The notes under the pieces: generated by a model
Seen by the model: the letters and a program-made list of their open reading frames with translations, nothing else
Told to the model about the DNA's origin: nothing
The model's database searches: none
Program-made: the position numbers and the translations under genes
Shown here: one piece after another, positions 4,284 to 20,848 of the stretch
Layout of the letters: the number at the start of each line of letters is the position of its first letter
Numbering within the stretch: the first letter of the stretch is position 1
From: a virus
Length of the DNA stretch: 21,153 nucleotides
Direction: 5' to 3' (one strand)
Virus record (IMG/VR): IMGVR_UViG_3300035698_010917
Location: 1 to 21,153 of that record

Positions 4284-5882
4284 ATGACCGTCGCCCGCCG
4301 AACATTCAAGCCACCTGTTAACCCGCATGTGCTCTTACGCGCAATCGAGGTTGAATTAGTGTTGCGCCAGAAGCGGGCCGCGAATGCCGACGGCAACCGC
4401 CCGGCCCACTGGCGCGAACGCATCAGCCAGGTTGCGCCGCGCCATACGGCGGCCGGCTTTGCGCCCTGGCATGAGCAGGCTTGGGAGTGGGCATGGGCCA
4501 TACAGCGCGGCGTACGCCCGCTCCCGGCGGTGTTCATCTGTCCACGCGGCGGCGGCAAAAGCACCACGGCAGAACTGATTACGGCGGAAATCGGTACAGG
4601 CTGGGGAACCGGGCAACCAATCCGCAACTACGGCTGGTACATCTCGGAAACGCAGGATCAGGCCGACGATCATGTGCAGAACGTGGCCGCGCTGTTGGAA
4701 GAGCAAGGTATCGATCGCGCCGTCGGCAAGTTCGGCAACCCCAAAGGCTGGCGACGCAACCGACTGCGCACGAGCTCAGGCTTTTCGCTTGACGCACTCG
4801 GCCTAGACGTTGCCCGCCGTGGCGCGAAACTTGAGGCGGATCGCCCGTCGCTGATGATCCTTGACGACCTCGATGGTGAACTTGACACAGCGGAAACGAC
4901 GGCGAAAAAGATCGCCGTGCTGAGTAAGAAACTGCTTCCAGCCGGCTCGCCTGATCTGGTGGTACTGGCTATCCAAAACCTCGTTACCCCGCACGGTATT
5001 TTTGCCCAGCTCGTCAGCCGCGAAACCGACATCCTCGCAGACCGCATACTAAGCGGGCCACACCCGGCCATTCGCGGCTTGACCTATGAGCAGCAGGAGC
5101 AGTGCGACGGGTCACTGAAGTTCGCGATCACGAGCGGCACACCGATTTGGAACGGGCAAGATCTTGCGGCGTGTCAGGCCTTTGTCGATACGTGGGGTCT
5201 GACCGCATTCCTCAGTGAGTGTCAGCACGAGGTAGACGACCCCGCCGGCGGTATGTTTGATCATCTGGAATACCGCCATTGTCGGCATGACGACGTGCCG
5301 CAATTGGATCGCGTCGTTGTGTGGTGCGACCCCGCCGTAACGGATAGCGCCAAAAGCGACTGTAACGGCATCCAGTGCGACGGACGCGCAAGCGATGGCA
5401 CGATTTACCGCCTGTACAGTTGGGAGCAACGCGCATCGCCGCTGGAAACCCTCAAGCAGGCCATCCGTGTTGCCCTTGAGCACAACGCCGAGTGCGTCGG
5501 CGTTGAAACCGATCAGGGTGGGCAGACGTGGGAGAGCGTCTACCGTGAATCGTGGCGCAGTCTGATCGACGAAGGCACCGTTGACGCAACGACGCGCCGC
5601 CCGATCTTCCGCTGGGCGCGCGCGGGCGACGGCCACGGGCCAAAGACCCACCGCGCCGGTCAAATGCTGGCTGCGTACGAGCAGGGCAGGGTGGTGCATG
5701 TCTACGGCACACACACGATGCTGGAAAAGGCGTTGCGCCGCTTCCCGCGTGCCAAACCGTATGACCTCGTAGACGCCGCGTACTGGTCATGGAACGATCT
5801 GGCGCGCAACCCCTCACACGATATTGCCGAGCATTACAAGCGTCGCGCCGCCGAACTTGCGGCCGCGACTGCGCAGACATAG
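4284..5882 (+). CDS. terL: Phage terminase large subunit
   Basis: This 532-residue ATPase-nuclease cuts concatemeric phage DNA and pumps it through the portal. The ATPase half shows Walker A CPRGGGKST (86-94) and Walker B LMILDDLD (190-197), preceded by GLDVARRGAKLEADRP, typical of large terminases. The nuclease half shows acidic residues in VVWCDP (D349), VGVETD (E408/D410) and KPYDLVDAAYW (D494, D497), the RNase H-like pattern. The length is normal for the family. The start at ATG 4284 lacks a strong ribosome binding site; a three-codon ATG ACC GTA TGA precedes and overlaps it and may couple initiation. No small terminase subunit is recognisable nearby. The portal gene follows after 12 bases. 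Confidence 0.95.
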   Translation: MTVARRTFKPPVNPHVLLRAIEVELVLRQKRAANADGNRPAHWRERISQVAPRHTAAGFAPWHEQAWEWAWAIQRGVRPLPAVFICPRGGGKSTTAELITAEIGTGWGTGQPIRNYGWYISETQDQADDHVQNVAALLEEQGIDRAVGKFGNPKGWRRNRLRTSSGFSLDALGLDVARRGAKLEADRPSLMILDDLDGELDTAETTAKKIAVLSKKLLPAGSPDLVVLAIQNLVTPHGIFAQLVSRETDILADRILSGPHPAIRGLTYEQQEQCDGSLKFAITSGTPIWNGQDLAACQAFVDTWGLTAFLSECQHEVDDPAGGMFDHLEYRHCRHDDVPQLDRVVVWCDPAVTDSAKSDCNGIQCDGRASDGTIYRLYSWEQRASPLETLKQAIRVALEHNAECVGVETDQGGQTWESVYRESWRSLIDEGTVDATTRRPIFRWARAGDGHGPKTHRAGQMLAAYEQGRVVHVYGTHTMLEKALRRFPRAKPYDLVDAAYWSWNDLARNPSHDIAEHYKRRAAELAAATAQT

Positions 5883-5894
5883 GAGTACGACGCC

Positions 5895-8684
5895 GTGACT
5901 GATCGCTCATCCCGCCCCGCGTCAACCCGCGATCTGGTTCCGCTGGCAGAGCGGATCGCCAATGCATGGAGCGTCCTACGGGGCGGGCCATTCAGCCCCG
6001 GCGTGCCGGTTCCGCCAACCACGTCTGAAGCCACCCAAGAGGCCGGGCCGCGTCGTTTTGCGTTTCCCGTCGGCGTTAACACCGTGTATGCGCCACGGCA
6101 AGAGTACCGGACGCAGACGCCGTTCCATCAACTGCGCAACCTAACGGCCCTGTACGACGTTGCGGCGATGTGTATCGCCGTGCGCGTCGAAGAGGTACAA
6201 GGGTTAGAGTGGTCAATCGTCGCCCATAACAAAAAGCGCCAGAGGGAGCTCCAGAACCTCTGCGACGACGTGCAGCACATCCTTATGCAGCCGGATCGCC
6301 GGGAAGAGTTCGACGCCTGGATCAGTATGGTGCTGTACGACGTGTTCAGCATTGACGCCTTGACCATCTTTCCCCGCCTTGACCTTGGCGGGCGCGTGCA
6401 TGCATGGGAAGTGATCGACGGATCGACCATTAAACCAATCCTCGACAGCCAAGGCCGCGTTGACGGCTATCAGCAGGTGTTGTACGGACTGCCGTTCGGC
6501 CAATACGGTGCGCCGACTCGCACGGGACGCACGGGACGCACGAAAGACGAAACTCACGAACTGGCCGTTGATTACGGACGCTATGAACTGATCTACCGCC
6601 CGCGCTGGCGTCGTACCTATACCCCGTACGGGTTTCCACCGGCGGAGTGGATCATCATGCGGGTCAATCAAGCGCTGCGTAAGCAGGCGATGGATCTGAG
6701 CTACTTCACCGACGGCAACATTCCAGCAATGCTCGTCAGTCCGCCCGACGGCATGATGGATACTGAGCAGATCCTTGCATTTGAGCAGGCATTTAACGCG
6801 GTGCTTGAGGGCGATCTTGCTCGTGGGCATCGGATTAAGTTTTTGCCGTGGAAGGGAGACGCGAAAGAACTGCGTCCCTTCAGTTACGAGACGAAGCTTG
6901 ACGATTGGATGATGCGGATTACGTGCGCCGCGTTCGGTGTTCCACCCAACGAACTGGGCTTTACCGACACGGTGAATAAAGCGTCGGCACAAGTACAGGA
7001 GGCGGTGAACGAGCGGCGCGGCCTGAAGCCAATCACGGGCTGGTTGGCCGATCTGATAAACTACTGGATGATCCGCTGGATTGAACGCCCGTACACGCCG
7101 GATCAGCCGGTCACACGGGCAATTTCCCTGCCTGGTCAACCCGCCCGTGTTGATGTGCCACTGGATCAACTGATCGGCTTTGCGTGGCGCTTTGGCGACA
7201 ACGAAGACAGAGCGCTGATGGCGTCGGTTGACGAAAAATACATCAATCTGGGCGTCATTGGCGCGGACGAGGTGCGCGTGATGCGCTACGGCGACGAGTT
7301 GGAAGGCCCGGCGCCCGGCGCACCCAAACCCGCTGCACCGCCCGTTACACCCGGCACACAGCCGCCCGCTTCGCCCGCTCCTGCACCGCAACTGCCAGCG
7401 CCGCCGGCTGCGCCAGTGTCCGACGCACCGCCAAAAATGGCCGATACATCGCCGGCGCTTGCGGCAATGGCAAAGGGCGCGTCGTATGCATCAGTGATTG
7501 TGGCGCTATGCCCGCCGCCGGCACTCGCACAGAGCATTGCCCAACGCGCCGCCCGTACGTACAGCCATTATGCCGAACCCGCCGGCGCCTTACACGTCAC
7601 CCTGGGCCGCTTTGGCGATGCGGCGACGCTTGCCCCGCAGTATGGCGATCTGTTAGGCGCACTCAATGCATTCCGATGGCCGCGCCCGCTTGCACTGCGC
7701 CTGAACGGACTGGGCGTGTTCGCACCAGGTGAAGATGGCGATACGCCCGTGTATGCGCCGGTCGATAGCGTTGACCTTGCGGCATTCCGTACGGCCTTTG
7801 TGACCCATATGGCGGATCGCGGCTTTCTGCTTGAAAGCGAACGCGGCTTTCTGCCGCATATGACCCTGGCATACGTGCCTGACAGTGCGCCGGTTGCGCT
7901 TACGGCGTCGCCGGATCTACGTTGGGATCACGACACCCTGACGCTGATGTTCGGCGGCGAACAATCAACCTGTTCGTTTCTGAACGGCGCAATGCTTCAG
8001 AAGCGCGACGAGGGCGACGATCCGCCCGATGTGACCGAGCGGCGCACGTTCGAATTGCAACTTGCCGCCGTCTTGACCCGCGCATTCGCGGCGCAGTCGA
8101 AACTGATTGAACGTGCGCTGGCGCCCGCCGATCCGCGTGAAAGCCTCAAGCAGCCCTCGCTCTGGACGCAGGCGCGTACGACGCTCTATCAGATGGTATT
8201 GCCGCTCTATGAGCAGATGGTCAAGGCCGGCGCACTGACAGCGGTCACGCTCATGCCGATCAATGTCGAATGGGGGCTGATCAACGGCGCTGCACTCGAA
8301 CGCGCGCGGGCAATGGCGATGGAACTAGCAACCACGTCAACCGAGACGAGCCGGGCACAAGTGGCGTCCCTCGTGGCCGATTGGATTGCCAACCCCACGA
8401 GCCGTCGCGATCTATTGCGGCAAGCGCGCGTCGTTTGGGATGACAACCGTTCCGAGATGACCGCTGTTACCGAAGTCACCCGGGCCTACGCCGAAGGCAA
8501 CCGCGCCGCATGGAGGCGGAGCAGCGTCATTCGGGGCATGCGTATCCGTACGGCCAGTGACGAGCGTGTATGCCCCGTATGCGGGCCGAAAGAGGGGCAA
8601 GTTGTCAGCCTGGAGAGCAACGAGATCCCGCCGTTCCATCCGCGTTGTCGCTGCTGGGTAACGCCAATCGTGAATGAGGAGTGA
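5895..8684 (+). CDS. Portal + 2H phosphodiesterase + MuF-type head morphogenesis fusion
   Basis: This 929-residue protein starts at GTG 5895, nine bases after AGGAG. Residues ~60-440 are a portal protein (the DNA channel at one head vertex), recognisable from LTALYDVAAMCIAVRVEEV, the EVIDGSTIKPILD strand, FGVPPNELGF and the QEAVNERRG helix. A proline/alanine linker spans ~470-515. Residues ~530-695 match the 2H phosphodiesterase (LigT-like) fold, with both catalytic motifs HVTL (567-570) and HMTL (655-658) 88 residues apart. Residues ~715-929 are a MuF/SPP1 gp7-like minor head domain ending in the CPVC...HPRCRC signature (C893, C896, H915, C918, C920). Portal-MuF proximity is common; a 2H enzyme between them is unusual. 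Its substrate is unknown: RNA 2',3' ends, cyclic oligonucleotides and NAD-derived cyclic phosphates are known for the superfamily. Confidence 0.9.
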   Translation: MTDRSSRPASTRDLVPLAERIANAWSVLRGGPFSPGVPVPPTTSEATQEAGPRRFAFPVGVNTVYAPRQEYRTQTPFHQLRNLTALYDVAAMCIAVRVEEVQGLEWSIVAHNKKRQRELQNLCDDVQHILMQPDRREEFDAWISMVLYDVFSIDALTIFPRLDLGGRVHAWEVIDGSTIKPILDSQGRVDGYQQVLYGLPFGQYGAPTRTGRTGRTKDETHELAVDYGRYELIYRPRWRRTYTPYGFPPAEWIIMRVNQALRKQAMDLSYFTDGNIPAMLVSPPDGMMDTEQILAFEQAFNAVLEGDLARGHRIKFLPWKGDAKELRPFSYETKLDDWMMRITCAAFGVPPNELGFTDTVNKASAQVQEAVNERRGLKPITGWLADLINYWMIRWIERPYTPDQPVTRAISLPGQPARVDVPLDQLIGFAWRFGDNEDRALMASVDEKYINLGVIGADEVRVMRYGDELEGPAPGAPKPAAPPVTPGTQPPASPAPAPQLPAPPAAPVSDAPPKMADTSPALAAMAKGASYASVIVALCPPPALAQSIAQRAARTYSHYAEPAGALHVTLGRFGDAATLAPQYGDLLGALNAFRWPRPLALRLNGLGVFAPGEDGDTPVYAPVDSVDLAAFRTAFVTHMADRGFLLESERGFLPHMTLAYVPDSAPVALTASPDLRWDHDTLTLMFGGEQSTCSFLNGAMLQKRDEGDDPPDVTERRTFELQLAAVLTRAFAAQSKLIERALAPADPRESLKQPSLWTQARTTLYQMVLPLYEQMVKAGALTAVTLMPINVEWGLINGAALERARAMAMELATTSTETSRAQVASLVADWIANPTSRRDLLRQARVVWDDNRSEMTAVTEVTRAYAEGNRAAWRRSSVIRGMRIRTASDERVCPVCGPKEGQVVSLESNEIPPFHPRCRCWVTPIVNEE
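6519..6542 (+). repeat. Short tandem 9-base repeat within portal gene
   Basis: CGCACGGGA occurs twice in tandem plus a partial third copy, encoding RTGRTGRT in a surface-loop-like stretch of the portal domain. It is the kind of repeat that can change copy number by slippage without breaking the frame. Confidence 0.5.
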
Positions 8685-8691
8685 GGGAAAT

Positions 8692-8784
8692 ATGCCGCCT
8701 GATGAAATTCGCGTCGTATCACTGAACGGCGCAGACGCAGCGATGAAACTGCACAAGGTGAGTATGCGGAAGGGGCGGGCGTGA
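8692..8784 (+). CDS. Tiny coupled open frame, 30 residues
   Basis: ATG 8692 follows a good ribosome binding site (GAGGGAAAT) and gives MPPDEIRVVSLNGADAAMKL plus ten basic residues, ending at TGA 8782-8784. The stop overlaps the GTG start of the next gene (GTGA). Its main effect may be to couple translation of the neck protein to the portal gene, or it may be a small head protein. It has no recognised family. Confidence 0.45.
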   Translation: MPPDEIRVVSLNGADAAMKLHKVSMRKGRA

Positions 8785-9206
8785 GCGATCCGATCTCGAT
8801 TGAACTCAAGGGCGCCGACGAACTCATTCGTGCGCTGAACGAGTATCCGAGCATTGCCGAACCAGACCTGCGCACGGCCACAGAGCAGGCGTACGCAGGT
8901 CTGGTTGACCCGCTGGCAACGTACCCGTCGCAAGCGCCGACGAACTACGTACGTTCAGGTAATTTAGGCCGCGCATGGTCAAGTGCTATACCCGAACTCG
9001 TGTTTCAGCGTTCGACGTTCAGCGGACGACTGGGCAACGCCATGCCGTACGGGCCGTACGTACAGGGCGACGAACAGGCCTACATGCACGTTGGGCGCTG
9101 GCAGACGGTGCGTGAGATCGTGCGCGTGCGAGAGCCGAACATTCAGCGCGCCTATGAAGCCGCCGGCGAACGGATCGCCGCTGCGATCAGTCGCCGTGCC
9201 GGGTAG
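8781..9206 (+). CDS. HK97 gp10-like head-tail joining (neck) protein
   Basis: This 141-residue protein starts at GTG 8781, with GGAAGGGG upstream and overlap with the tiny open frame before it. It opens with ISIELKGADELIRALNEYPS and carries the family-like central pattern YPSQAPTNYVRSGNLGRAW, then YGPYVQGDEQAYMHVGRW, and ends in a basic helix. This layout (small N-terminal helix, R-S/T-G-x-L motif, Y-x-x-Y-V-x-G) is that of HK97 gp10-type or related minor neck proteins, which sit between connector and tail tube. Its position after the portal/MuF gene agrees. Family assignment is from pattern memory and not from a search. Confidence 0.7.
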   Translation: MSDPISIELKGADELIRALNEYPSIAEPDLRTATEQAYAGLVDPLATYPSQAPTNYVRSGNLGRAWSSAIPELVFQRSTFSGRLGNAMPYGPYVQGDEQAYMHVGRWQTVREIVRVREPNIQRAYEAAGERIAAAISRRAG

Positions 9207-10490: not shown

Positions 10491-13400
10491 ATGGCGTTAC
10501 TCGCGTACACATCCGGCACCCCGAGCGCGGCAACGAGTATTGTCGTTCCGACGCCGCCTGAAGCAGCACCGGGCATGATCCTGGTGCTGCATCTTGCGGT
10601 GCGCGGCAATGCGACAATTACCGCGCCGGCTGGATGGTCAACAGCGAGTAGTGTCAGTCATTTCAGCACATCTGGCACCGGGCAACTTCGCAGTATCATC
10701 TACACGCGAATCCTTGCCGTCAACGAACCGGCCTCACATACCGTTTCGTTTAGCGCATCCACCGCTGCGACCTGGAACCAGTTAGTATGCGACGCCATTG
10801 ATACCGGCATTGTGACTGATTCGGTTATCAGCGTGTCTAGCAGCGGGACAAGCCTCACCGCCCCGAGTATCACCAGTAGCGTCGCGCAGCAGATCGTGTT
10901 GACGTTTGTCGCCGGCGACACGAGCAGCGCGCTCACTCTGCCGCAAGACGTTGGGCAGGTTGCCGCGCAGCAGCGCAGCGGACTCCCCAATGGAAACAGC
11001 ATGACAACGGCGGTTGGGCATCAAATTGTCACGAGCGGCGCCGCAGGCGGCAATGTCACCGTCGGAACGTCAACCTTGGGCATTGTGCAGCGCGTCGTGT
11101 TGCGGCGCGCCCCGATGCGCGCAACCGTAACAGGAACCATCGGATGTCCGTACGCCTGTTCGTCGGCAAACCAGATCCTTGAGACGGCAACCAACGAGAT
11201 CCGACTCTTCGGCACATTCCGTGCCAGCGACTCCGGTCGGCTGAGTAGTGCCGTTGCCGATATGAGCGGCGGCAGCTCATCACAGCAAGTGCGCCTGGTG
11301 ATTGCCAAAACGGAAGTCATCAGCGGCGAAGATCGCCCAACACGCATTCTCGGCGCCGGGTCGGTTGTCACGATCACTGCGAACCAGAGCCGCAGTGATG
11401 TGTCATTGCCCGTGCCTGATGTTGCGCTGATCCGAGGGAAGCGCTACGTGCTAGGCGTCTGGTACGCCGGAACGGGGAACGCCCGCATTCATAGCGAGTG
11501 GCGCATGGCAACGCGCTATTCCATGAACGCCTCGTTTTCCTCAACCAATGCGCCGCCCGCAACATTCACGCAAAACAGTTTTCTGACGAACCTGCCGAAG
11601 CTCGTGGCAACCTACGCGGTTGACGCTGCCGATCCGGCTGTCAGTGGCTACGGCTCACTGACACCAGGCCAACCGGCCGCAAGCGACTTCGTGACAAACC
11701 CTGATGCCACGGCGCATCAGTGGCGCAGCGATACGCCGATCTTACCGTCGTTCGTGAATCGCGTGCTGCGCTATCAGCGCTACGACTGGAACCAGATCGA
11801 AAGCAGCCAGGGCAGCTACAGCTTCGGAACCATTCGATCCAACATTCTGAGCGCACGCAGCGCGGGACAGAAATTCGGGTTGCGTGTCCGTGCCCGTATC
11901 ACCGGCTGGGTGCTGCCGTCCTATCTCTCAGGTCAGAGCTGGAATGACAGCTTCTTTCGGGCGCGCCATGTTGCGCTGCACACCGCACTGCGCAACTACG
12001 TGCTTGCGGAAGGGCTGATCAACGATCTCATCCTGGTCGATATTGACGGGATCGGCAACTACGGCGAATGGGCCGGCGGCGATAGCGGCAACTACAGCGC
12101 GGCGATCGAAGAAGAAATCATTCAGAGCGTCCTTGACGTGTGGCAGGGCTACATCCCTGAGATCAGCCTGCCCATGTTCGTGGTACGGCGCTTCCGCTGG
12201 GATTTTATCCGCGCATTGCCCGAGCCAGTGGGCTTTCGCTGCGATATTTGGGGCGCTGAAGGCTGTGGCTGGCTCACATCGGGCCAACACGGCCTTGCGT
12301 ACCGCGCCGACCTCACGCGCGCGCCGGAAGAGGGCAAATGGATCGGCGGCGAAATTGACTGGGGGCTGAATGGCACCGTCAGTGCCGATACGCTGCGTAT
12401 CAACAACTGGTTCTTTCGGCCACATACGGTCAGTGACGGCAACTGGAAGGGGCAGACCTTCAACGGCTTCAGTGGCGCGGATCAGGTCAAAATCCTTGAT
12501 GCGTTCCGTATGCTCGGCTATCGCTTTGCCGTGACACGGGTTGACCGGCCTACAACCGTCGAAATCGGACAGGCGCAGCGGTGGACGTTCCATTGGAGTA
12601 ACGTCAATCGCGGCCTGCCGGTCTGGCGCGATGATTGGGCCGTGCAACTCCGATTGCGTAACAGCGGCGGAACCGTCGTCTGGACAGACACACTCGACAC
12701 TGATATTCGGTCACTCTGGACAACGGGAGCGCGGGCGCATGTGCGCTCCGAAACGATCACCCTCAGTGGCATTCCGGCCGGAACATATACGGCGGAACTG
12801 CGGATCGTGGCCGGCAGTGAAGCGCCGAAAACGATGGCAAACAGCAGCCGCAATAGCGACGGCGCGTACCCGCTCGGCAGTGTGACCGTTACCGAGTCGG
12901 GCGGTACAACCACACCGCTTACCCTGGCAACGCACGTCACATCAGCGCCGGAACGGGCGCGCAGCATCTCGTTCCGGCGCCGCGTGGCCGGACTACTGCG
13001 TGGCCTACGCTTAACCGGCGGCGACTCGATTGTAGGAACCAACAGCCTTCAGACGATACACGGCACCTTCAGTACGCCTGTTGTCACCGGCAATCAGACG
13101 GTAGCAGGCCTGCCGTTTGCGCCCAAACTCGTGTTCTTTTCGTGGAATGCGCTGCCCAACCCGTCGAACAGTACCAGTTCGCAAGGCGGGCAAGGGTGGA
13201 TGCACGTCGGCGGGGAAGCGACCATCTATGCAGCGCATGCCGCCAACGGCACGGAAACCGCACAGCGCGTCCTCTCTACGGCCTGCCTCGTTACCGTGTT
13301 ACCTGATCAGACCATTACCTCGCAGGCCTCCTATGTATCGCTGAACGCCGACGGCTTCACGATCAACTGGACGACGGCGCCCGCGTCGGCTTATGCCGTC

Positions 13401-15563
13401 GCGTATCTTGCGCTGGGCGGCGACGATCTGACCAACATCACCAGCGGCACGTTCAGTTCGACCTCAACACCGCAATCCGGCAGTACGTCATTTGAACCGG
13501 ATGCCATTCTGCTGCTTGGCTCGGATAACAACATCAACGGAACGACGCCGAACGGTCAAATCATTCGCGGCACAATCCTGGGCACGAGCAACCGGCACAC
13601 CACGAGTGCGCGCAAGGTGCGCCCGGCAGACGGCTCTGCCGCCGCGTCCGGCCTGATTAGCACAGCGGCGTACGTCGGCGCGCGCGGTACGTCGTCAGAT
13701 ACGGTCTGGGATGTAACAGCCATCAGCGGATCGGGTTTCACCCTGACCCGCACGAGCGGATCGCGCGGTATTCATGCGGCGTGGCTGGCATTCGACGGCG
13801 TACGGGTTGCACGCGGAACGATTGTGCAGCCGACAAGTACGGGCAACCAGGTTATCACCGGGCTAGGCTTCCGCCCGCTGGCAATGATTATTGACAGTGG
13901 CGACAAGGCAACAACGAACGCCTATACCGCTGATGCCTACTATATGCACGGCATGACCGACTTCTTTGGGCAATCGGCGCACTGGTTCGCCGTCATCACC
14001 GGCAGTGTGAGCGTTATCGGCAACCGTACCCAGACCTTTAACCACGTCATTCAGTCGCATGGCCCAACCGCCAGCGGCAATCCACCGCGCTACGCCCAGG
14101 CGACCGTTGCCGGTACATCAGACGACGGTTTTACGCTCAACTGGAGCGAGGTCAATAGCACGCAGCGGCGGCATGGCTTCCTGGCATTCGGCCCAACCGA
14201 AGAGGGGACGACCACATGGCTGCGTACCTTGCGCGCTGCGATGAACACGCTGCACGCGGCGGCTCGCACGACGTGGCTTGACCGGCTGATTGCCATGACC
14301 GCCGAAACCGATCCTGCGATTGAACCAGGGCGCTATGTGCGGTCGCAATCTGATGCGCGGGCGTTCCCGAATGGCACGCTCGTTGATCGCCTGCGTAGCA
14401 CAACGATTACCGCGTCCGCTGCCTTCACGCAGACATTCCTTCGTACCCTCGTTGCTATTTTGGGCGTAATCGGGCGCGTACCCAGGCAGGTACAGGCGGT
14501 ACGGGACACGACAACGAACGCAACCGCGCGCAACCGCTACGCCTTCCCGCGCTTCATCGTCGCCAGTATGACCGCAACCGCCAGTGCCGTCGATTGGGTA
14601 GCATCGCTCGGGCGACGGGTGTTCATGCACGCGAACGGCAGAACGCGACTACTGATCAGCCGCCTCCAGGCCACACGATCGATACTCATTGCGTTGCGCC
14701 GCCCAACGACGGGCCAATTCTCGCGCGCGGTGCTTGATAGCGCATCGTCGCTGATTGACCGACTGCCGCTCATTCGGCCACGCGCCGTTCTTGCGGCGGC
14801 GGTCAGCCGACAACGCACGGTACAGCAGGCCGTTCGGCGCGTACTCATCCTAGCAAGCGCCCGTTTCCGACGCGGGCAAGATCTCCTCTTTGCCATCAGC
14901 GCCAGTGTTACGGCGAATGGACGCCGGTTCGTCACGGCGGCGCGCACATCGGCCACAAGCAGCGATGCCAGCGGCGTACGCGGTACATTCACCGCAAACG
15001 CACGCCGAATGGCGGCGCTTGCGGCATCTGCCGTACGCGCCGCCGTAACTGTGGGCGCGCGGCGATCGAGCAGCGTGTTCACCTCGACCCTCGTGCGCTT
15101 TGGGCAAACGATTGAACGCACCATTCGCGCCGCTGTTACAGCAGTTGCCGTGCGCAACGCACGCACCGACCGAACCCGCACGACGCCAGTAGACGCATCA
15201 GGCACGGCGCAGCGCACGGCACAGCCGATGATTGCGACAGCCCTGAACGCAGCGGCAACACTGGCCGGGCGCATCATCACGCAAACCCGTGCGACTGTAA
15301 CCGTCCTCGCAGGACAGGCACGGCGCACAACGCTTGCGCGGCGGCTTGCTACGGCGCTTACGGGCGCATCGTGGCGCGTCCTGGTTGCCTATCAGGATGC
15401 AACGTCCATGACCGCAGGCGGGCGCGTACAGCGCACAAGTGCGCTACGGCGCCGGGTAACACTGACGCTTGCGCCGACGATTGCCGCCGTGCTTGATGCG
15501 CTGTCGCGGCTCATTCGCGGCAATATTGACGGGCCGGGCGACGGCACGATCTGGGGAGGCTGA
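10491..15563 (+). CDS. Giant receptor-binding/tailspike-like protein with glycosidase-like core
   Basis: This 1690-residue protein starts directly after the previous TAA. Residues 1-210 are a threonine/serine-rich beta domain. Residues ~385-780 resemble the DUF4874/DUF4832 glycoside-hydrolase-like pair: LRYQRYDWNQIESSQGSYSF (~424), LILVDIDGIGNYGEW (~513), then an Ig-like part around WTFHWSNVNRGLPVWRDDW and IPAGTYTAELRIV. Residues ~856-1236 contain three tandem beta-domain copies. Residues ~1240-1690 are arginine/alanine/threonine-rich with no lysine or cysteine. It most likely forms a fibre or spike that binds, and may cut, a surface polysaccharide; the catalytic residues are not certain. No intramolecular chaperone domain of known type is visible at the C-terminus. 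Confidence 0.8.
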   Translation: MALLAYTSGTPSAATSIVVPTPPEAAPGMILVLHLAVRGNATITAPAGWSTASSVSHFSTSGTGQLRSIIYTRILAVNEPASHTVSFSASTAATWNQLVCDAIDTGIVTDSVISVSSSGTSLTAPSITSSVAQQIVLTFVAGDTSSALTLPQDVGQVAAQQRSGLPNGNSMTTAVGHQIVTSGAAGGNVTVGTSTLGIVQRVVLRRAPMRATVTGTIGCPYACSSANQILETATNEIRLFGTFRASDSGRLSSAVADMSGGSSSQQVRLVIAKTEVISGEDRPTRILGAGSVVTITANQSRSDVSLPVPDVALIRGKRYVLGVWYAGTGNARIHSEWRMATRYSMNASFSSTNAPPATFTQNSFLTNLPKLVATYAVDAADPAVSGYGSLTPGQPAASDFVTNPDATAHQWRSDTPILPSFVNRVLRYQRYDWNQIESSQGSYSFGTIRSNILSARSAGQKFGLRVRARITGWVLPSYLSGQSWNDSFFRARHVALHTALRNYVLAEGLINDLILVDIDGIGNYGEWAGGDSGNYSAAIEEEIIQSVLDVWQGYIPEISLPMFVVRRFRWDFIRALPEPVGFRCDIWGAEGCGWLTSGQHGLAYRADLTRAPEEGKWIGGEIDWGLNGTVSADTLRINNWFFRPHTVSDGNWKGQTFNGFSGADQVKILDAFRMLGYRFAVTRVDRPTTVEIGQAQRWTFHWSNVNRGLPVWRDDWAVQLRLRNSGGTVVWTDTLDTDIRSLWTTGARAHVRSETITLSGIPAGTYTAELRIVAGSEAPKTMANSSRNSDGAYPLGSVTVTESGGTTTPLTLATHVTSAPERARSISFRRRVAGLLRGLRLTGGDSIVGTNSLQTIHGTFSTPVVTGNQTVAGLPFAPKLVFFSWNALPNPSNSTSSQGGQGWMHVGGEATIYAAHAANGTETAQRVLSTACLVTVLPDQTITSQASYVSLNADGFTINWTTAPASAYAVAYLALGGDDLTNITSGTFSSTSTPQSGSTSFEPDAILLLGSDNNINGTTPNGQIIRGTILGTSNRHTTSARKVRPADGSAAASGLISTAAYVGARGTSSDTVWDVTAISGSGFTLTRTSGSRGIHAAWLAFDGVRVARGTIVQPTSTGNQVITGLGFRPLAMIIDSGDKATTNAYTADAYYMHGMTDFFGQSAHWFAVITGSVSVIGNRTQTFNHVIQSHGPTASGNPPRYAQATVAGTSDDGFTLNWSEVNSTQRRHGFLAFGPTEEGTTTWLRTLRAAMNTLHAAARTTWLDRLIAMTAETDPAIEPGRYVRSQSDARAFPNGTLVDRLRSTTITASAAFTQTFLRTLVAILGVIGRVPRQVQAVRDTTTNATARNRYAFPRFIVASMTATASAVDWVASLGRRVFMHANGRTRLLISRLQATRSILIALRRPTTGQFSRAVLDSASSLIDRLPLIRPRAVLAAAVSRQRTVQQAVRRVLILASARFRRGQDLLFAISASVTANGRRFVTAARTSATSSDASGVRGTFTANARRMAALAASAVRAAVTVGARRSSSVFTSTLVRFGQTIERTIRAAVTAVAVRNARTDRTRTTPVDASGTAQRTAQPMIATALNAAATLAGRIITQTRATVTVLAGQARRTTLARRLATALTGASWRVLVAYQDATSMTAGGRVQRTSALRRRVTLTLAPTIAAVLDALSRLIRGNIDGPGDGTIWGG
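13058..14198 (+). repeat. Three tandem copies of a ~120-130-residue beta domain
   Basis: At protein level, copies run ~856-977, ~983-1103 and ~1107-1236. Each opens with G-T/S-F/I...TGNQ-like and a G-L/S-x-F-x-P strand (VAGLPFAPKLVFF, SFEPDAILLLG, ITGLGFRPLAMII). Each closes with DGFT/SGFT plus L/INW or LTR and a final strand AYLALGG, AWLAFDG or GFLAFGP. The DNA is diverged, so this is an old duplication. Copy 2 has lost part of the opening TGNQ motif. Confidence 0.75.
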
Positions 15564-15951: not shown

Positions 15952-18159
15952 ATGACGATTACGAAGAGTGACAAAGAAGAGATTGAGGGGAACCTCTGCC
16001 GACTACCAAGCGGCCTGTTTGGGCCATGCGACGCGGCGGGGGAGGAAGAGCCGAAAGAAGACGAGGCGCTGTCACCTGAGGCGCTGATGGACGCTATCAA
16101 GGATATCCCGGGCGACGAGCGCGATGCGAACCTGGAGTCCGTTGCGGCAGAACTCGGCGTCAACAACAACCTGCTGTACGCACTGGATGAGCTGAAAGAC
16201 CCCGAAGAGCCAATCACGCCGTCGCCGGAAAACGCCGCTGCGCTGACCGAGGCAGGCCTTGCGACGATGAACGAGGACGGCAGCGCATCACTCACCGACG
16301 CAGGGCGGGCGCTCGTCCTTGCCGCCGCGACGGGCGACACTGCCGCCGCAGACGCCGTGCTGAACGGGAAGAGTGAAAGCGCTAGCGACGCCCCGGCCAC
16401 AGAGGGCGGCGAGGCGGCAAGGACGAGCGCCGAACCTGCCGGCAGTCTTACGCCCGCAGGTGCAACGGCGGAAGCAGAAGTCGCCGCCGAAGAGGAAGAG
16501 CCAAAAGGCGGCGGAGGCGGAGGCGGAGGCGGCGGAGGTGACGAGCCGCCCAGTCAGGAAGTGGAAACCACGAACCGCAATACCGTAGCCGATGCGCTGG
16601 AAATCGACCGCAACGCAATCGGCGCACTGCAAACGGCGTTCACGGGCGGCGCTGTGGGCGGGCCGGAAGCCGACGTAGCACGGCAGCTCGGCTTGCTTGA
16701 CGATGCGGGGCAACCGACGCCGGCGGGCGTGCGCTTTATCGCGGCGGCAACCGTCGGCAACCTCTCGGATGCCCGTTCCGCCTTGACTGCGGCGCAAGGG
16801 CAGGCACCGGGGCCGGGGGATACCGACAAACTCATGATGGGCATGGCGATCACGAGGACGGACGATGATCAGCGCATCGTCTACGGCTATGCCAGCTCGG
16901 AAGACCTCGACAGTCAGCCCGGCGTCTGGCACGGCAAGGCGTACGTCGGTGATGTGGTTGACGCTAATGCCATTAACGCGGCGCTGCCGGAGTACCTAGA
17001 ATTTGCGAACGTCCGCGAAATGCACGGCAATAGCGCCGTCGGCGTAGCGGTACACGCCGAACTCATTCCCGGCGATGTGATTGTAACCATCAACGGCAAA
17101 GAGCGCACGCTGCGCAACCCGCTCTACATCGGCGTCAAGGTGGTAGACGATAGCGCCTGGAAAAAGGTCAAGGAAGGCGTTTACAAAGGATTCTCCATTG
17201 GCGGCAAGGTCATCCGAGCCGCCGTTGAAAAAATACAGGGCAGCGGCGCCTATCTGCGCCGTGTGACCAAACTGGCGCTACACGAGATCAGTCTCGTGGA
17301 TCGCCCGGCCAATCCCAACGCCCGGTTTGTGCTGATTAAGGCCGCCGGATTAGACGACACAGGAGACGACCTCATGACCGTTCTCGCCAATCTCCCGACG
17401 GAGGCAATCGACGCACTGGCAACGTCGCTTGTCGGAAAACTGCACGGCGATCTCAACAAAGCCGCCGATCCGCAGCGCATCATCAGTATGATCCAGGCGA
17501 TGCGCAATGAGAGTGAACTCAATGGCGACCTGGAAGGCGCGCAGATGCTCACGCAGGCCATTACGATGGTCATGCAAGCTGCCGAAGGCACCGACGAAGC
17601 GGACACGATGACGGAAACGGCGGATACTGAAACGGTGGAAATGGCGCAGCGCACGGGCGATCTCGGCAAGGCCGGGCGCGTCCTGAGCAAGAAGCGGATG
17701 CAGAACATGCAGGCCGTCTTGAAGTCGTTGCTGCAGTTGATGGCTGATGCCGGCGACGAACCGGCGCAGCGGGCCATGAAAGCGTATGGCATGCGCAAAG
17801 ACGATGCGGCGGAAAGTACCGACGCACTCGGCAAGGCGATCGGCACGGTACTAGAGCCCGCCTTTAGCGGCCTTTCGGACGTGCTGAACAAAATCCAATC
17901 GACGCAGGACGCCCATGCCTCGCAGATTGATGCGCTAAGTCGCCTGCCACGCGACGGCGGGCCGGCGGCGCGCAACGTGATTACCAAGTCCCTGGGCGCG
18001 GGCATCTTGGAAGAGCGCGTGCAGTCGCCCATCAGTGACGACGTCGAGAAAATGCGCGCCGAACTGGAGCGCGAAACCAACCCCCTTCGACGGGCGGAAT
18101 TACAACGGCGGCTTGCGAAGGCGTATCACCCGGCCATGAACGGATCGGGTTTGCAATAA
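15952..18159 (+). CDS. Prohead protease with N-terminal extension and C-terminal scaffold
   Basis: This 735-residue protein starts at ATG 15952 after CGGAG. Residues ~300-462 are an XkdF/HK97-like prohead serine protease: probable catalytic H358 in REMHGNSAVG and S415 in KGFSIGG, with the family-typical LALHEISLVDRPANPNA strand. Residues ~475-735 are acidic, helical and scaffold-like. Residues 1-295 are an unusual extension with C16 and C26 (LCRLPSGLFGPC), two winged-helix-like repeats (~40-139 and ~205-281) and an eleven-glycine linker (186-196). The protease trims scaffold and capsid protein inside the prohead. It lies directly before the major capsid gene, as in HK97-type phages. An internal start at 17374 probably makes the scaffold alone. 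Confidence 0.88.
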   Translation: MTITKSDKEEIEGNLCRLPSGLFGPCDAAGEEEPKEDEALSPEALMDAIKDIPGDERDANLESVAAELGVNNNLLYALDELKDPEEPITPSPENAAALTEAGLATMNEDGSASLTDAGRALVLAAATGDTAAADAVLNGKSESASDAPATEGGEAARTSAEPAGSLTPAGATAEAEVAAEEEEPKGGGGGGGGGGGDEPPSQEVETTNRNTVADALEIDRNAIGALQTAFTGGAVGGPEADVARQLGLLDDAGQPTPAGVRFIAAATVGNLSDARSALTAAQGQAPGPGDTDKLMMGMAITRTDDDQRIVYGYASSEDLDSQPGVWHGKAYVGDVVDANAINAALPEYLEFANVREMHGNSAVGVAVHAELIPGDVIVTINGKERTLRNPLYIGVKVVDDSAWKKVKEGVYKGFSIGGKVIRAAVEKIQGSGAYLRRVTKLALHEISLVDRPANPNARFVLIKAAGLDDTGDDLMTVLANLPTEAIDALATSLVGKLHGDLNKAADPQRIISMIQAMRNESELNGDLEGAQMLTQAITMVMQAAEGTDEADTMTETADTETVEMAQRTGDLGKAGRVLSKKRMQNMQAVLKSLLQLMADAGDEPAQRAMKAYGMRKDDAAESTDALGKAIGTVLEPAFSGLSDVLNKIQSTQDAHASQIDALSRLPRDGGPAARNVITKSLGAGILEERVQSPISDDVEKMRAELERETNPLRRAELQRRLAKAYHPAMNGSGLQ
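16507..16539 (+). repeat. GGC/GGA repeat encoding eleven glycines
   Basis: Eleven glycine codons in a row (a GGCGGA-type repeat) encode a flexible linker between the first winged-helix-like repeat region and the second. The tract is a likely slippage site, but every change by three bases stays in frame. Confidence 0.8.
17374..18159 (+). CDS. Internally initiated scaffold protein (in frame with protease)
   Basis: AGGAG (17361-17365) sits eight bases before ATG 17374, in frame with the protease gene and just after the protease domain ends (FVLIKAAGLDDTGDDL). Starting there gives a 261-residue acidic, helix-rich protein (MTVLANLPTEAIDALATSLV onward) with a basic tail ending YHPAMNGSGLQ. Phage lambda makes its scaffold Nu3 the same way, from an internal start in the protease gene C. 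The site quality and its exact position at the domain boundary are the evidence; expression is inferred. Confidence 0.65.
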   Translation: MTVLANLPTEAIDALATSLVGKLHGDLNKAADPQRIISMIQAMRNESELNGDLEGAQMLTQAITMVMQAAEGTDEADTMTETADTETVEMAQRTGDLGKAGRVLSKKRMQNMQAVLKSLLQLMADAGDEPAQRAMKAYGMRKDDAAESTDALGKAIGTVLEPAFSGLSDVLNKIQSTQDAHASQIDALSRLPRDGGPAARNVITKSLGAGILEERVQSPISDDVEKMRAELERETNPLRRAELQRRLAKAYHPAMNGSGLQ

Positions 18160-18219: not shown

Positions 18220-19764
18220 ATGAAGCGTTGGATTAATTCGGACGGCCAGGATGTGACTCAGCAGACCCTTGCCGAATGGCGCAAGGTAATGGGCGAAGAT
18301 GACGGCTACGATCTGCGCAAGGCGGCAACCGTCACCACCAGTAACGGCTTGGTCGCTTACGACCTCGAAGCGCCGGCCAAAAACCTGTACCCGGTACTCA
18401 CGCCGCTGCGCAATCGCATTCCGCGCGAGACGAGGGCCAGCGGCGCCGGTACGGCGGCAAATTGGAAAGTGGTGACGGCGATCAGCGGCGGTGGTGTGAG
18501 CAGCATGGGCTGGGTGCCGGAAGGCCAGCGCGCCCCGCGCATGACCATCAGCACCGAAGACAAGAGTGCTAGTTACGTTACCGTCGGCGAAGAGAGCGAC
18601 GTGACGTTTGAGGCCGAGTCGGCGGGGGCCGGGTTCGAGGACGTGCTTGCCACCAGCGGCATGCGGGCCTTGCAGTCCGTAATGATCAAAGAAGAGTACG
18701 CCATTCTGGGCGGCAACCGTAGCGTTGCACTCGGCAAGCCGGTCACGCCGACCGCAGCGGCAGCCGGTACGGGCGCGACGCTTCCCGCCGCAACCTACCT
18801 CGTGACCGTGTTTCCGTTGTCGCTTGAGGGCTATCTTGCGGCAACCGTAGTCGGCGGGATCAAGCGCGCTGAAACGATCACCGGGCAAGACGGCAAGACG
18901 TTCACCCTGAACGGCGGTTCCGGCATCGCCTCTGATGCCGCAAGCCAGGCCGCGACGCTCGGTCAGACCCTCAGTGTGTCGGTTCCGGTGGTACGCGGCG
19001 CCGTGGCCTACGCCTGGTTCATCGGCGCCAGTGGTGTGCAGACCTTGCAGGCCATCACCACGATCAACAGCGCGGCGTTCAGCGGGGCCATTATTGGCAG
19101 CACGCAGACCCTTGCCGCCATCACCGATCCGACGATTGACCGTTCGCGCAATGCCACGATGGCCTATGACGGCCTGCTGTACAGCGCGTTTGATGGTACA
19201 TCGCTGGCGTACTATCGTGCGCTGGGTACCGGCACGGCAGGCACCGGCACGGCGCTAACGGCCAGCAATCGCGGCTCGGTGGTAGAGATCGATGAAATGC
19301 TCAAGTCATTTTGGGATAGCTACCGGATCAGCCCCGAAGAGATCTACGTCTCGGCGCAAGAACTCCTGAGCATCACGAAGCTGGTACTGACGCAGAACAG
19401 CGCCAGCAGCCTGATCCGCTTTAATCTCGACGTGTCGAGCCAGGCACCGAGTGTGATGGGCGGGCAGATCGTGGGGACGTATTTCAACCCGTTCACCGTG
19501 AACGGCGGGCAAGTCATTCCAATCCGCCTGCACCCCAACCTGCCGGCCGGAACGCTGTTCTGCTGGGCAGAGAACCTACCGGCCTACTACGAGTCGAACA
19601 ATGTCCCGCAAACGGCGCTCGTGCAGAACCGGCGTGATTACTACCAGATCAACTGGCAGCCCATCACCCGCGCCAATGAAACCGGCGTGTACTGCGAAAC
19701 GGTGTTGAAGATTTACGCCACGTTCGCGCTTGGCATCATTCACAACATCGCGCCGACCGCCTAG
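18220..19764 (+). CDS. HK97-type major capsid protein
   Basis: This 514-residue protein starts at ATG 18220, nine bases after AGGAG, 60 bases past the protease gene. After a helical N-terminal arm, LYPVLTPLRNRIPRET and the WVPEGQRAPRMTIS strand match HK97-like capsid proteins. The C-terminal part carries EEIYVSAQELLSITKLVL, GGQIVGTYFNPFTVNGGQVI and a strand-rich end. Residues ~180-300 form an extra Ig-like or fibronectin-like domain (LPAATYLVTVFPLSLEGY...VRGAVAYAWFIGASG), probably displayed on the capsid surface. It is longer than the minimal HK97 fold because of this insertion. It builds the icosahedral shell on the scaffold encoded upstream. Confidence 0.88.
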   Translation: MKRWINSDGQDVTQQTLAEWRKVMGEDDGYDLRKAATVTTSNGLVAYDLEAPAKNLYPVLTPLRNRIPRETRASGAGTAANWKVVTAISGGGVSSMGWVPEGQRAPRMTISTEDKSASYVTVGEESDVTFEAESAGAGFEDVLATSGMRALQSVMIKEEYAILGGNRSVALGKPVTPTAAAAGTGATLPAATYLVTVFPLSLEGYLAATVVGGIKRAETITGQDGKTFTLNGGSGIASDAASQAATLGQTLSVSVPVVRGAVAYAWFIGASGVQTLQAITTINSAAFSGAIIGSTQTLAAITDPTIDRSRNATMAYDGLLYSAFDGTSLAYYRALGTGTAGTGTALTASNRGSVVEIDEMLKSFWDSYRISPEEIYVSAQELLSITKLVLTQNSASSLIRFNLDVSSQAPSVMGGQIVGTYFNPFTVNGGQVIPIRLHPNLPAGTLFCWAENLPAYYESNNVPQTALVQNRRDYYQINWQPITRANETGVYCETVLKIYATFALGIIHNIAPTA

Positions 19765-20091: not shown

Positions 20092-20255
20092 TCGCCGCTT
20101 TACTACGCCGATTGGCGCTGCTGATTGCGGCGCCGCTTGTCCGCGAAGTCGCCTACACCCATACCGCTGTAGGGTACCAATCGTGGCTGGAATTGCCACG
20201 CATTGGCGTTATAGCCTTTCGTAAGCATGACGGTACGCTGATTACCCGGTGGTAA
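20088..20255 (+). CDS. Small 55-residue protein with hydrophobic N-terminus
   Basis: ATG 20088 overlaps the previous stop (ATGA) and has GAGGA upstream. The product begins MIAALLRRLALLIAAPLVRE, a short amphipathic or membrane-seeking helix. It continues through GYQSWLELPRIGVIAFRKHD and ends GTLITRW, which looks like a small beta hairpin. The tight coupling on both sides argues that it is a real gene. The function is unknown. Confidence 0.6.
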   Translation: MIAALLRRLALLIAAPLVREVAYTHTAVGYQSWLELPRIGVIAFRKHDGTLITRW

Positions 20256-20257
20256 CG

Positions 20258-20848
20258 ATGCGCTACACAACCATAACCGCCGTCAAGCAATGGTCAGACA
20301 TCTTCAGCGCCGCTGATGACGAGATGATCGGCGGAGTCATTGACGGCTACAGCCGCCTGATGGACGAGTATTGCCGACAGGTCTTAGGGCGGCGCGTCGT
20401 CACCGATCTGTATGAAGGCGTGTATGGCGTCGTAGAAGCATCGGGACGGCTGATTATCAGTGTGCCGGCGCCAGACGTTGCGGCCCTGACTGCCGTGACG
20501 ATTGAAGCACCAGGACGGACGCCAGTCACCCTAACGGCAAGTGATCTGCGTATTCGCAAGGCCAAAAGCGGGACGCGGCTTGTCAGCACGGGAACCCACT
20601 ACGGCCACGTACGCGGGCGAACCGCCTTGCACCTGGATGTACTGATCAGCGGAACGCTGGGCTATGAGGTAATCCCCGACGATCTGGAACTCATGGCGCG
20701 CCAGCTCGTGCATTGGGGCTACAGTCGGCGACAAACGCCCGCCGAAAAGACGGCCATTCCCGAAATGGGGATTGTCGTCATTCCGACGAATTGGCCTCCA
20801 CACGTCAAGGCGGGCTTGTCTGCCTACGTGCGTCATACGGCGGCTTAG
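20258..20848 (+). CDS. Head-tail connector protein (gp6-like)
   Basis: ATG 20258 is chosen over an in-frame GTG at 20249 because the latter lies inside the previous gene; GGTGGT precedes the ATG. The 196-residue product starts MRYTTITAVKQWSDIFSAAD with an N-terminal helical bundle typical of HK97 gp6-type connectors (DDEMIGGVIDGYSRLMDEYC). It then has a larger beta-rich domain (APDVAALTAVTIEAPGR and LISGTLGYEVIPDDLELMA) reminiscent of longer gp6/gp15-like adaptors. Such proteins form a ring under the portal to complete the head. The position after the capsid gene agrees. Confidence 0.72.
   Translation: MRYTTITAVKQWSDIFSAADDEMIGGVIDGYSRLMDEYCRQVLGRRVVTDLYEGVYGVVEASGRLIISVPAPDVAALTAVTIEAPGRTPVTLTASDLRIRKAKSGTRLVSTGTHYGHVRGRTALHLDVLISGTLGYEVIPDDLELMARQLVHWGYSRRQTPAEKTAIPEMGIVVIPTNWPPHVKAGLSAYVRHTAA

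Follow-up and report, generated by a model that had tools for sequence, protein, structure and literature searches.

What would a 2H phosphoesterase domain do between the portal and MuF domains of a single phage head protein, and does the arrangement point to an enzyme that travels in the virion? The question arises from a fragment of a viral genome (IMG/VR record IMGVR_UViG_3300035698_010917) of 21,153 bases, all of which we analysed and refer to as the window. Enzymes of the 2H type open 2',3'-cyclic phosphates without a metal and cleave 2'-5' linkages, and the 2H protein Acb1 attacks 3'-5' bonds of cyclic nucleotides (PMC9117128; PMC11410667). The initial annotation regarded virion-borne anti-defence by a portal fusion as new, a view overtaken by two earlier studies: one reports fusions of 2H to MuF or to portal, in which 2H may act as an RNase or degrade the nucleotides of counter-invader systems (Iyer et al., 2017; PMC5512222), and the other takes such fusions to suggest packaging in the head and injection against (oligo)nucleotide-based immune signalling (Iyer et al., 2022; PMC9503650). 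These "polyvalent proteins" resemble the window's protein in the 2H-portal/MuF fusion itself and in the predicted role of packaging, injection and interference with nucleotide signalling. Both the arrangement and its anti-immunity interpretation are already published as prediction, and the window is a further example.

Architecture of the fusion gene and its neighbourhood

The fusion gene lies among the following genes of the window.

4284-5882, plus strand: terminase large subunit (phrog_38, E 5.6e-39), upstream neighbour of the fusion gene
5895-8684, plus strand: portal-2H-MuF fusion gene, 929 aa, GTG start, single open frame
8781-9206: neck protein, neighbour of the fusion gene
15952-18159, plus strand: XkdF/S78-type prohead serine protease, 735 aa (PF14550, E 2.3e-6; PF04586, E 3.6e-5)
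20249-20848: head-tail adaptor

With terminase, neck, prohead protease and head-tail adaptor as neighbours, the window is therefore a tailed-phage head module. Its prohead protease, which PHROGs calls a head maturation protease, is itself without a 2H domain. Scans for promoters and terminators in the window gave nothing above chance level. An endolysin-like protein (1200-2777) that matches amidase and, weakly, glucosaminidase families is encoded upstream of the terminase. The 1690-aa product of 10491-15563, whose gene stands between those of the neck protein and the protease, matches DUF4832 and could belong to the tail or to receptor binding, though the position is odd for such a protein; 3' of the protease, a 514-aa protein (18220-19764) matches phrog_13692, of unknown function, at E 5.6e-108 and no Pfam family, and judged by position is likely the major capsid protein.

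Within the fusion gene the parts are as follows.

6153-7295, plus strand: portal domain, residues about 87-467 (PF04860 match 90-463, E 7.3e-12; phrog_2662 portal, E 1.5e-55)
7305-7484, plus strand: Pro/Ala-rich linker by sequence composition, residues 471-530 (32% P, 28% A)
7500-7964, plus strand: 2H phosphoesterase domain, residues about 536-690 (PF13563, AlphaFold2, Foldseek)
7593-7604, plus strand: first HxT motif, HVTL (H567, T569)
7857-7868, plus strand: second HxT motif, HMTL (H655, T657)
7992-8039, plus strand: second linker, residues about 700-715, at which the alignment with the portal-MuF relatives L013, L203, L207 and L214 resumes
8040-8681, plus strand: MuF part, a helical N-terminal region and a core at residues about 822-925

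Pfam places Phage_portal, 2_5_RNA_ligase2/LigT_PEase and Phage_Mu_F in that order on the protein, all above curated cut-offs, and the MuF core is matched by PF04233 (residues 833-922, E 3.1e-7) and TIGR01641 phageSPP1_gp7 (E 1.1e-10). Together with the uninterrupted 929-aa frame, these matches confirm the initial annotation's reading of a 2H domain between portal and MuF; the limits it gave, 7484-7990, fit closely those of the profile, 7485-7961 (residues 531-689). An enzyme domain shares one polypeptide with portal and MuF, as in head-delivered portal/MuF enzyme fusions. The proposed search for the same fusion in other phages found the identical domain order on five independent contigs (L092, L107, L145, L149 and L161), and because these share it, chimeric assembly is an unlikely source of the fusion. 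A query with the whole fusion recovered no relative among viral contigs, whereas a query with the portal alignment did; plasmid records matched portal, 2H or MuF in part and the fusion not at all. Portal-MuF fusions of Microbacterium phages are on record, as are MuF-VIP2 fusions (PMC7302621).

Identity of the 2H domain

In the full protein, PF13563 (2_5_RNA_ligase2) covers residues 540-684 at E 1.1e-9. On the excised residues 525-705 it reaches 41.9 bits against a cut-off of 27, with an E-value (1.4e-10) that makes a chance match unlikely, and LigT_PEase (PF02834) reaches 32.8 bits against 23.3 (E 7.8e-8); the PHROGs match of the domain, phrog_14859, is of the phage RNA ligase type. The two HxTL motifs on which the initial annotation rested, at H567 and H655, are present as HVTL and HMTL, 88 residues apart, and an HxT[LIV] pair spaced by 70-110 residues arose in 0.02% of 5000 shuffles of the fusion protein. 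A third HxTL-like string, HDTL at residue 679, lies outside the aligned motif columns. AlphaFold2 run on the sequence without relatives gave an unusable model (pLDDT 40.8), and the run with 68 aligned 2H rows was used instead; it predicts the bilobal fold that the initial annotation had expected (pLDDT 91.8, pTM 0.86). Foldseek matched this model with a probability of 1.00 to LigT/CPDase proteins, with the Deinococcus radiodurans RNA 2',3'-cyclic phosphodiesterase drCPDase at the top of the PDB matches (5h7e, E 7.9e-9), followed by a Thermus homologue and E. coli LigT; RNase L antagonists are also among the matches. A profile scoring above cut-off, two HxT/S motifs and a bilobal, internally duplicated fold together place the domain in the 2H superfamily.

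Within that superfamily the domain is nearest to the ThpR/LigT group (5h7e, 5ldm, 1vdx), with which it has in common the bilobal fold and two HxT motifs and which supplies its best fold and profile matches, including the first hits in a profile search of PDB sequences. It differs from this group in its fusion to head proteins and in identity of 20% or less, and it scores 30.6 bits against the 65.7 required by the TIGR02258 equivalog for the ThpR RNA 2',3'-cyclic phosphodiesterase. In a phmmer search of PDB sequences the domain alone returned chance matches only. The initial annotation's comparison with Acb1, the anti-CBASS nuclease, holds for the fold and the catalytic motifs, since the domain has the HxT/HxT tetrad in a 2H fold as in 7t26 and 7t27, but fails at the level of family: the Acb1 structures 7t27 and 7t26 rank 44 and 47 in Foldseek (TM 0.43-0.45 by query), Acb1 is absent at E 0.01 from the profile search of PDB sequences, and neither the window protein nor the excised domain is listed by the Pfam Acb1 model PF23474 at E<=1. 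We therefore rejected membership of the Acb1 family; in the relative L196 that model reaches 20.9 bits against a cut-off of 27. Acb1 as described is, moreover, a separate protein with no head fusion. By sequence and predicted fold, the domain leans towards the RNA 2',3'-cyclic phosphodiesterases rather than Acb1. A published phage phosphoesterase (PMC12287305, EMBO Rep) is unrelated, being a metallophosphoesterase.

When compared with predicted viral structures, the domain has some of its best matches in Gordonia phage GMA6 and Brevibacterium phage Cantare, two phages in which the 2H gene adjoins or lies near the portal gene. In the GMA6 locus (L008:5645-6760) portal, 2H and ADP-ribosyltransferase genes each follow directly on the one before.

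Loss of the motif histidines in relatives would have spoken against an enzyme, and in 90 aligned 2H domains, which include some duplicates of one phage, the first motif keeps H and T in 90/90 and the second PH in 90/90 and T in 88/90. As loci were fetched with patterns containing one motif or the other, conservation was judged on the unselected motif: the second is kept in 62/62 loci found by the first-motif pattern alone, the first in 9/9 found by the second-motif pattern alone, and both in the loci found via the portal alone (L196, L229, L231, L235, L016, L012 and L089). The catalytic motifs of the window domain are apparently intact, and a LigT-type enzyme domain is predicted.

Placement of the domain on head proteins

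Portal relatives from IMG/VR are 41-54% identical to the window portal. Compared with portal-MuF relatives that have no 2H domain (L013, L014, L203, L207 and L214), the window protein has one extra block, from residue ~480 to ~705, past which its MuF part is back in step with them, collinear in alignment with L013, L014 and L203; these relatives have a short linker exactly where the window carries 2H. Judged by these alignments, the 2H domain is a clean insertion into a pre-existing portal-MuF interdomain linker. In the portal tree the window groups with L012, its closest portal relative, and with L195 and L196 (support 91/92), and every member of this group has a different architecture.

Window: portal-2H-MuF, single protein
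L196: portal-2H, followed by MuF in an overlapping frame
L012: portal and separate MuF, with 2H at the N terminus of an S78/XkdF prohead protease (L172:1405-3039, on the L012 contig)
L195: portal protein without 2H and without MuF
L016, slightly further out in the tree: portal-2H

A 2H match occurs in 3/40 whole records of portal relatives (those of L012, L016 and L089). From this variable presence and the three positions taken among portal relatives it follows that the 2H domain is optional and that its carrier differs. The window differs from the polyvalent proteins in placing 2H between portal and MuF, and its nearest relatives have the domain also on the prohead protease and its wider ones on capsid fusions; we did not find these protease and capsid placements stated in the available portions of the two studies (Iyer et al., 2017; Iyer et al., 2022). 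The switch of carrier between portal and protease inside one close clade, which rests on few contigs, is an addition to the published picture. In the tree of 2H domains themselves the window domain sits on a long branch, its placement not firm, and portal fusions are spread over several groups.

A search with four 2H domains returned 80 loci, a sample biased towards head-gene fusions because such fusions served as its seeds; a 2H alignment of eight rows proved too heterogeneous for scanning. Pfam on 65 distinct 2H proteins found the S78 protease in 15, Phage_portal in 12, XkdF in 7, Phage_capsid_4 in 6 and MuF in 5, counts that may overlap. Portal, MuF, S78/XkdF protease and capsid proteins, the fusion partners of these wider relatives, are all procapsid parts. 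Some of the 2H proteins are large and also contain ADP-ribosyltransferase, GNAT, zeta-toxin or topoisomerase domains. In two loci (L104:5764-8565 and L114:5782-8766) 2H stands at the N terminus and the major capsid domain (Phage_capsid_4) at the end of the protein. Cultured Arthrobacter and Microbacterium phages, with L005:4764-5936 and L006:4767-5879 among the loci, have fusions of 2H to the XkdF protease, and their annotations range from RNA ligase and aldolase class I to capsid maturation protease.

Among more distant relatives, other enzymes occupy similar places. Arthrobacter phages Mufasa8 and Sonali encode portal-NUDIX-MuF proteins in which a homologous portal carries its enzyme in the equivalent interdomain position, with NUDIX instead of the window's 2H. 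The loci with such portal-NUDIX-MuF fusions are L002:2134-5136, L010:2144-5131, L025, L026 and L032; GenBank labels the Mufasa8 protein a MutT/NUDIX hydrolase in one record and a portal protein in another. NUDIX domains on MuF, portal and processing peptidase have been described (Iyer et al., 2022; PMC9503650). The two domains coincide in L089 (portal-MuF-2H-NUDIX) and L164 (2H together with NUDIX). Further fusions are portal-2H-MuF-ADP-ribosyltransferase (L229:420-4520) and portal-MuF-ADP-ribosyltransferase (L230:2327-5800). MuF polymorphic toxins also carry an enzyme on a MuF head protein, but there the toxin is C-terminal and has an immunity protein, whereas the window's enzyme is N-terminal to MuF (PMC5576092; PMC12226406). 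In L235:4862-9181 the portal domain falls into two segments (94-260 and 651-836) in one frame; an intein or other insertion would account for the ~390 aa between them.

Candidate roles of the fused enzyme

In tailed phages the procapsid encloses MuF and the prohead protease as well as the C-terminal regions of the portal and the N-terminal part of the capsid precursors, and the portal ring has twelve subunits. An enzyme attached to such procapsid-interior proteins would for that reason be enclosed at assembly, and since any of these carriers would achieve this, a virion-borne enzyme is favoured over a structural portal element. We propose that the window encodes a metal-independent 2H phosphodiesterase of the LigT/ThpR type, carried by the portal protein as cargo, of which up to twelve copies could be brought into the head via the portal ring. 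An intact 2H domain tied to portal and MuF, and found on other head proteins in relatives, fits such an enzyme, and the varied carriers and the NUDIX and ADP-ribosyltransferase partners are more in keeping with cargo packaged in the head than with a structural piece of the portal. On these sequence comparisons we consider it probable that the domain is packaged in the virion. Injection needs release of the domain from the portal ring, which the window's prohead protease might bring about by cutting putative sites in the linkers. The enzyme would then enter the cell together with the phage DNA, open 2',3'-cyclic or 2'-5'/3'-5' phosphodiesters in small defence nucleotides, putatively cyclic oligonucleotides or 2'-5' oligoadenylate-like signals, and blunt an early alarm. 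If the domain is packaged, a nucleotide signal is somewhat favoured as its target; for the whole proposal, from packaging through injection to removal of host nucleotide signals, we put the chances at about even.

One clade with three procapsid carriers (portal-MuF linker, portal tail and prohead protease) might further reflect selection for an active 2H enzyme in the head by any carrier, as an injected early anti-signalling enzyme whose substrate range is distinct from that of Acb1, a reading we advance tentatively and consider rather doubtful. Were the enzyme packaged and active, the protein that disarms a nucleotide alarm would stem from the previous cell and act before any phage gene is expressed, and the prediction of 2017 would become a testable mechanism; the many head-protein fusions would then amount to a large group of enzymes that travel in virions and at present bear the annotations RNA ligase, aldolase or capsid protease.

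Processing of RNA ends, which the initial annotation had also suggested, would have the enzyme act early in infection on the 2',3'-cyclic phosphate ends that host anticodon nucleases produce, opening them as a first step of tRNA repair completed by host or later phage ligases. The closest solved structures, RNA 2',3'-cyclic phosphodiesterases and E. coli LigT, and the weak TIGR02258 match agree with this role, but the co-occurrence test lent it no support: KptA, RtcB, DRB0094-type and T4-type RNA ligases were each found in 0/50 records with such 2H domains, records that are often fragments and whose hosts could supply a substitute enzyme. The T4-type search detected T4 itself, the positive control, and had no match in control genomes. 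The 2017 study likewise reports that these versions of 2H were never seen with RNA ligases (Iyer et al., 2017; PMC5512222). We regard the role as unlikely; with no repair partners in the 50 records, early removal of nucleotide signals is the reading we hold most likely, with moderate confidence.

An injected RNase, Usb1-like, or another enzyme attacking host RNA or CRISPR RNA comes next and is also unlikely. It was put forward for this group in the 2017 study (Iyer et al., 2017; PMC5512222), other portal/MuF fusions bear toxin-like domains such as ADP-ribosyltransferase, and human Usb1 is among the Foldseek matches, but its match is weaker than those of LigT/ThpR proteins. Action on ADP-ribose derivatives, for example a 1'',2''-cyclic phosphate, in an NAD/ADP-ribose pathway shared with NUDIX and ADP-ribosyltransferase cargo, is improbable: such a pathway is set out in PMC9503650, and 2H joins NUDIX in L089 and L164 and ADP-ribosyltransferase in L229, while NUDIX alone occurs in related portal fusions, yet Pfam finds neither partner in the window fusion, which has 2H alone, and KptA, which usually supplies the cyclic product, is missing from the 50 records. 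Least probable is a structural or assembly role in which the domain, physically joined to portal and MuF, would serve at the portal vertex to bind RNA, DNA or nucleotide and catalysis would be irrelevant, given that many close portal relatives do without 2H, that in L012 it sits on the protease and that all the relatives examined retain the two catalytic motifs.
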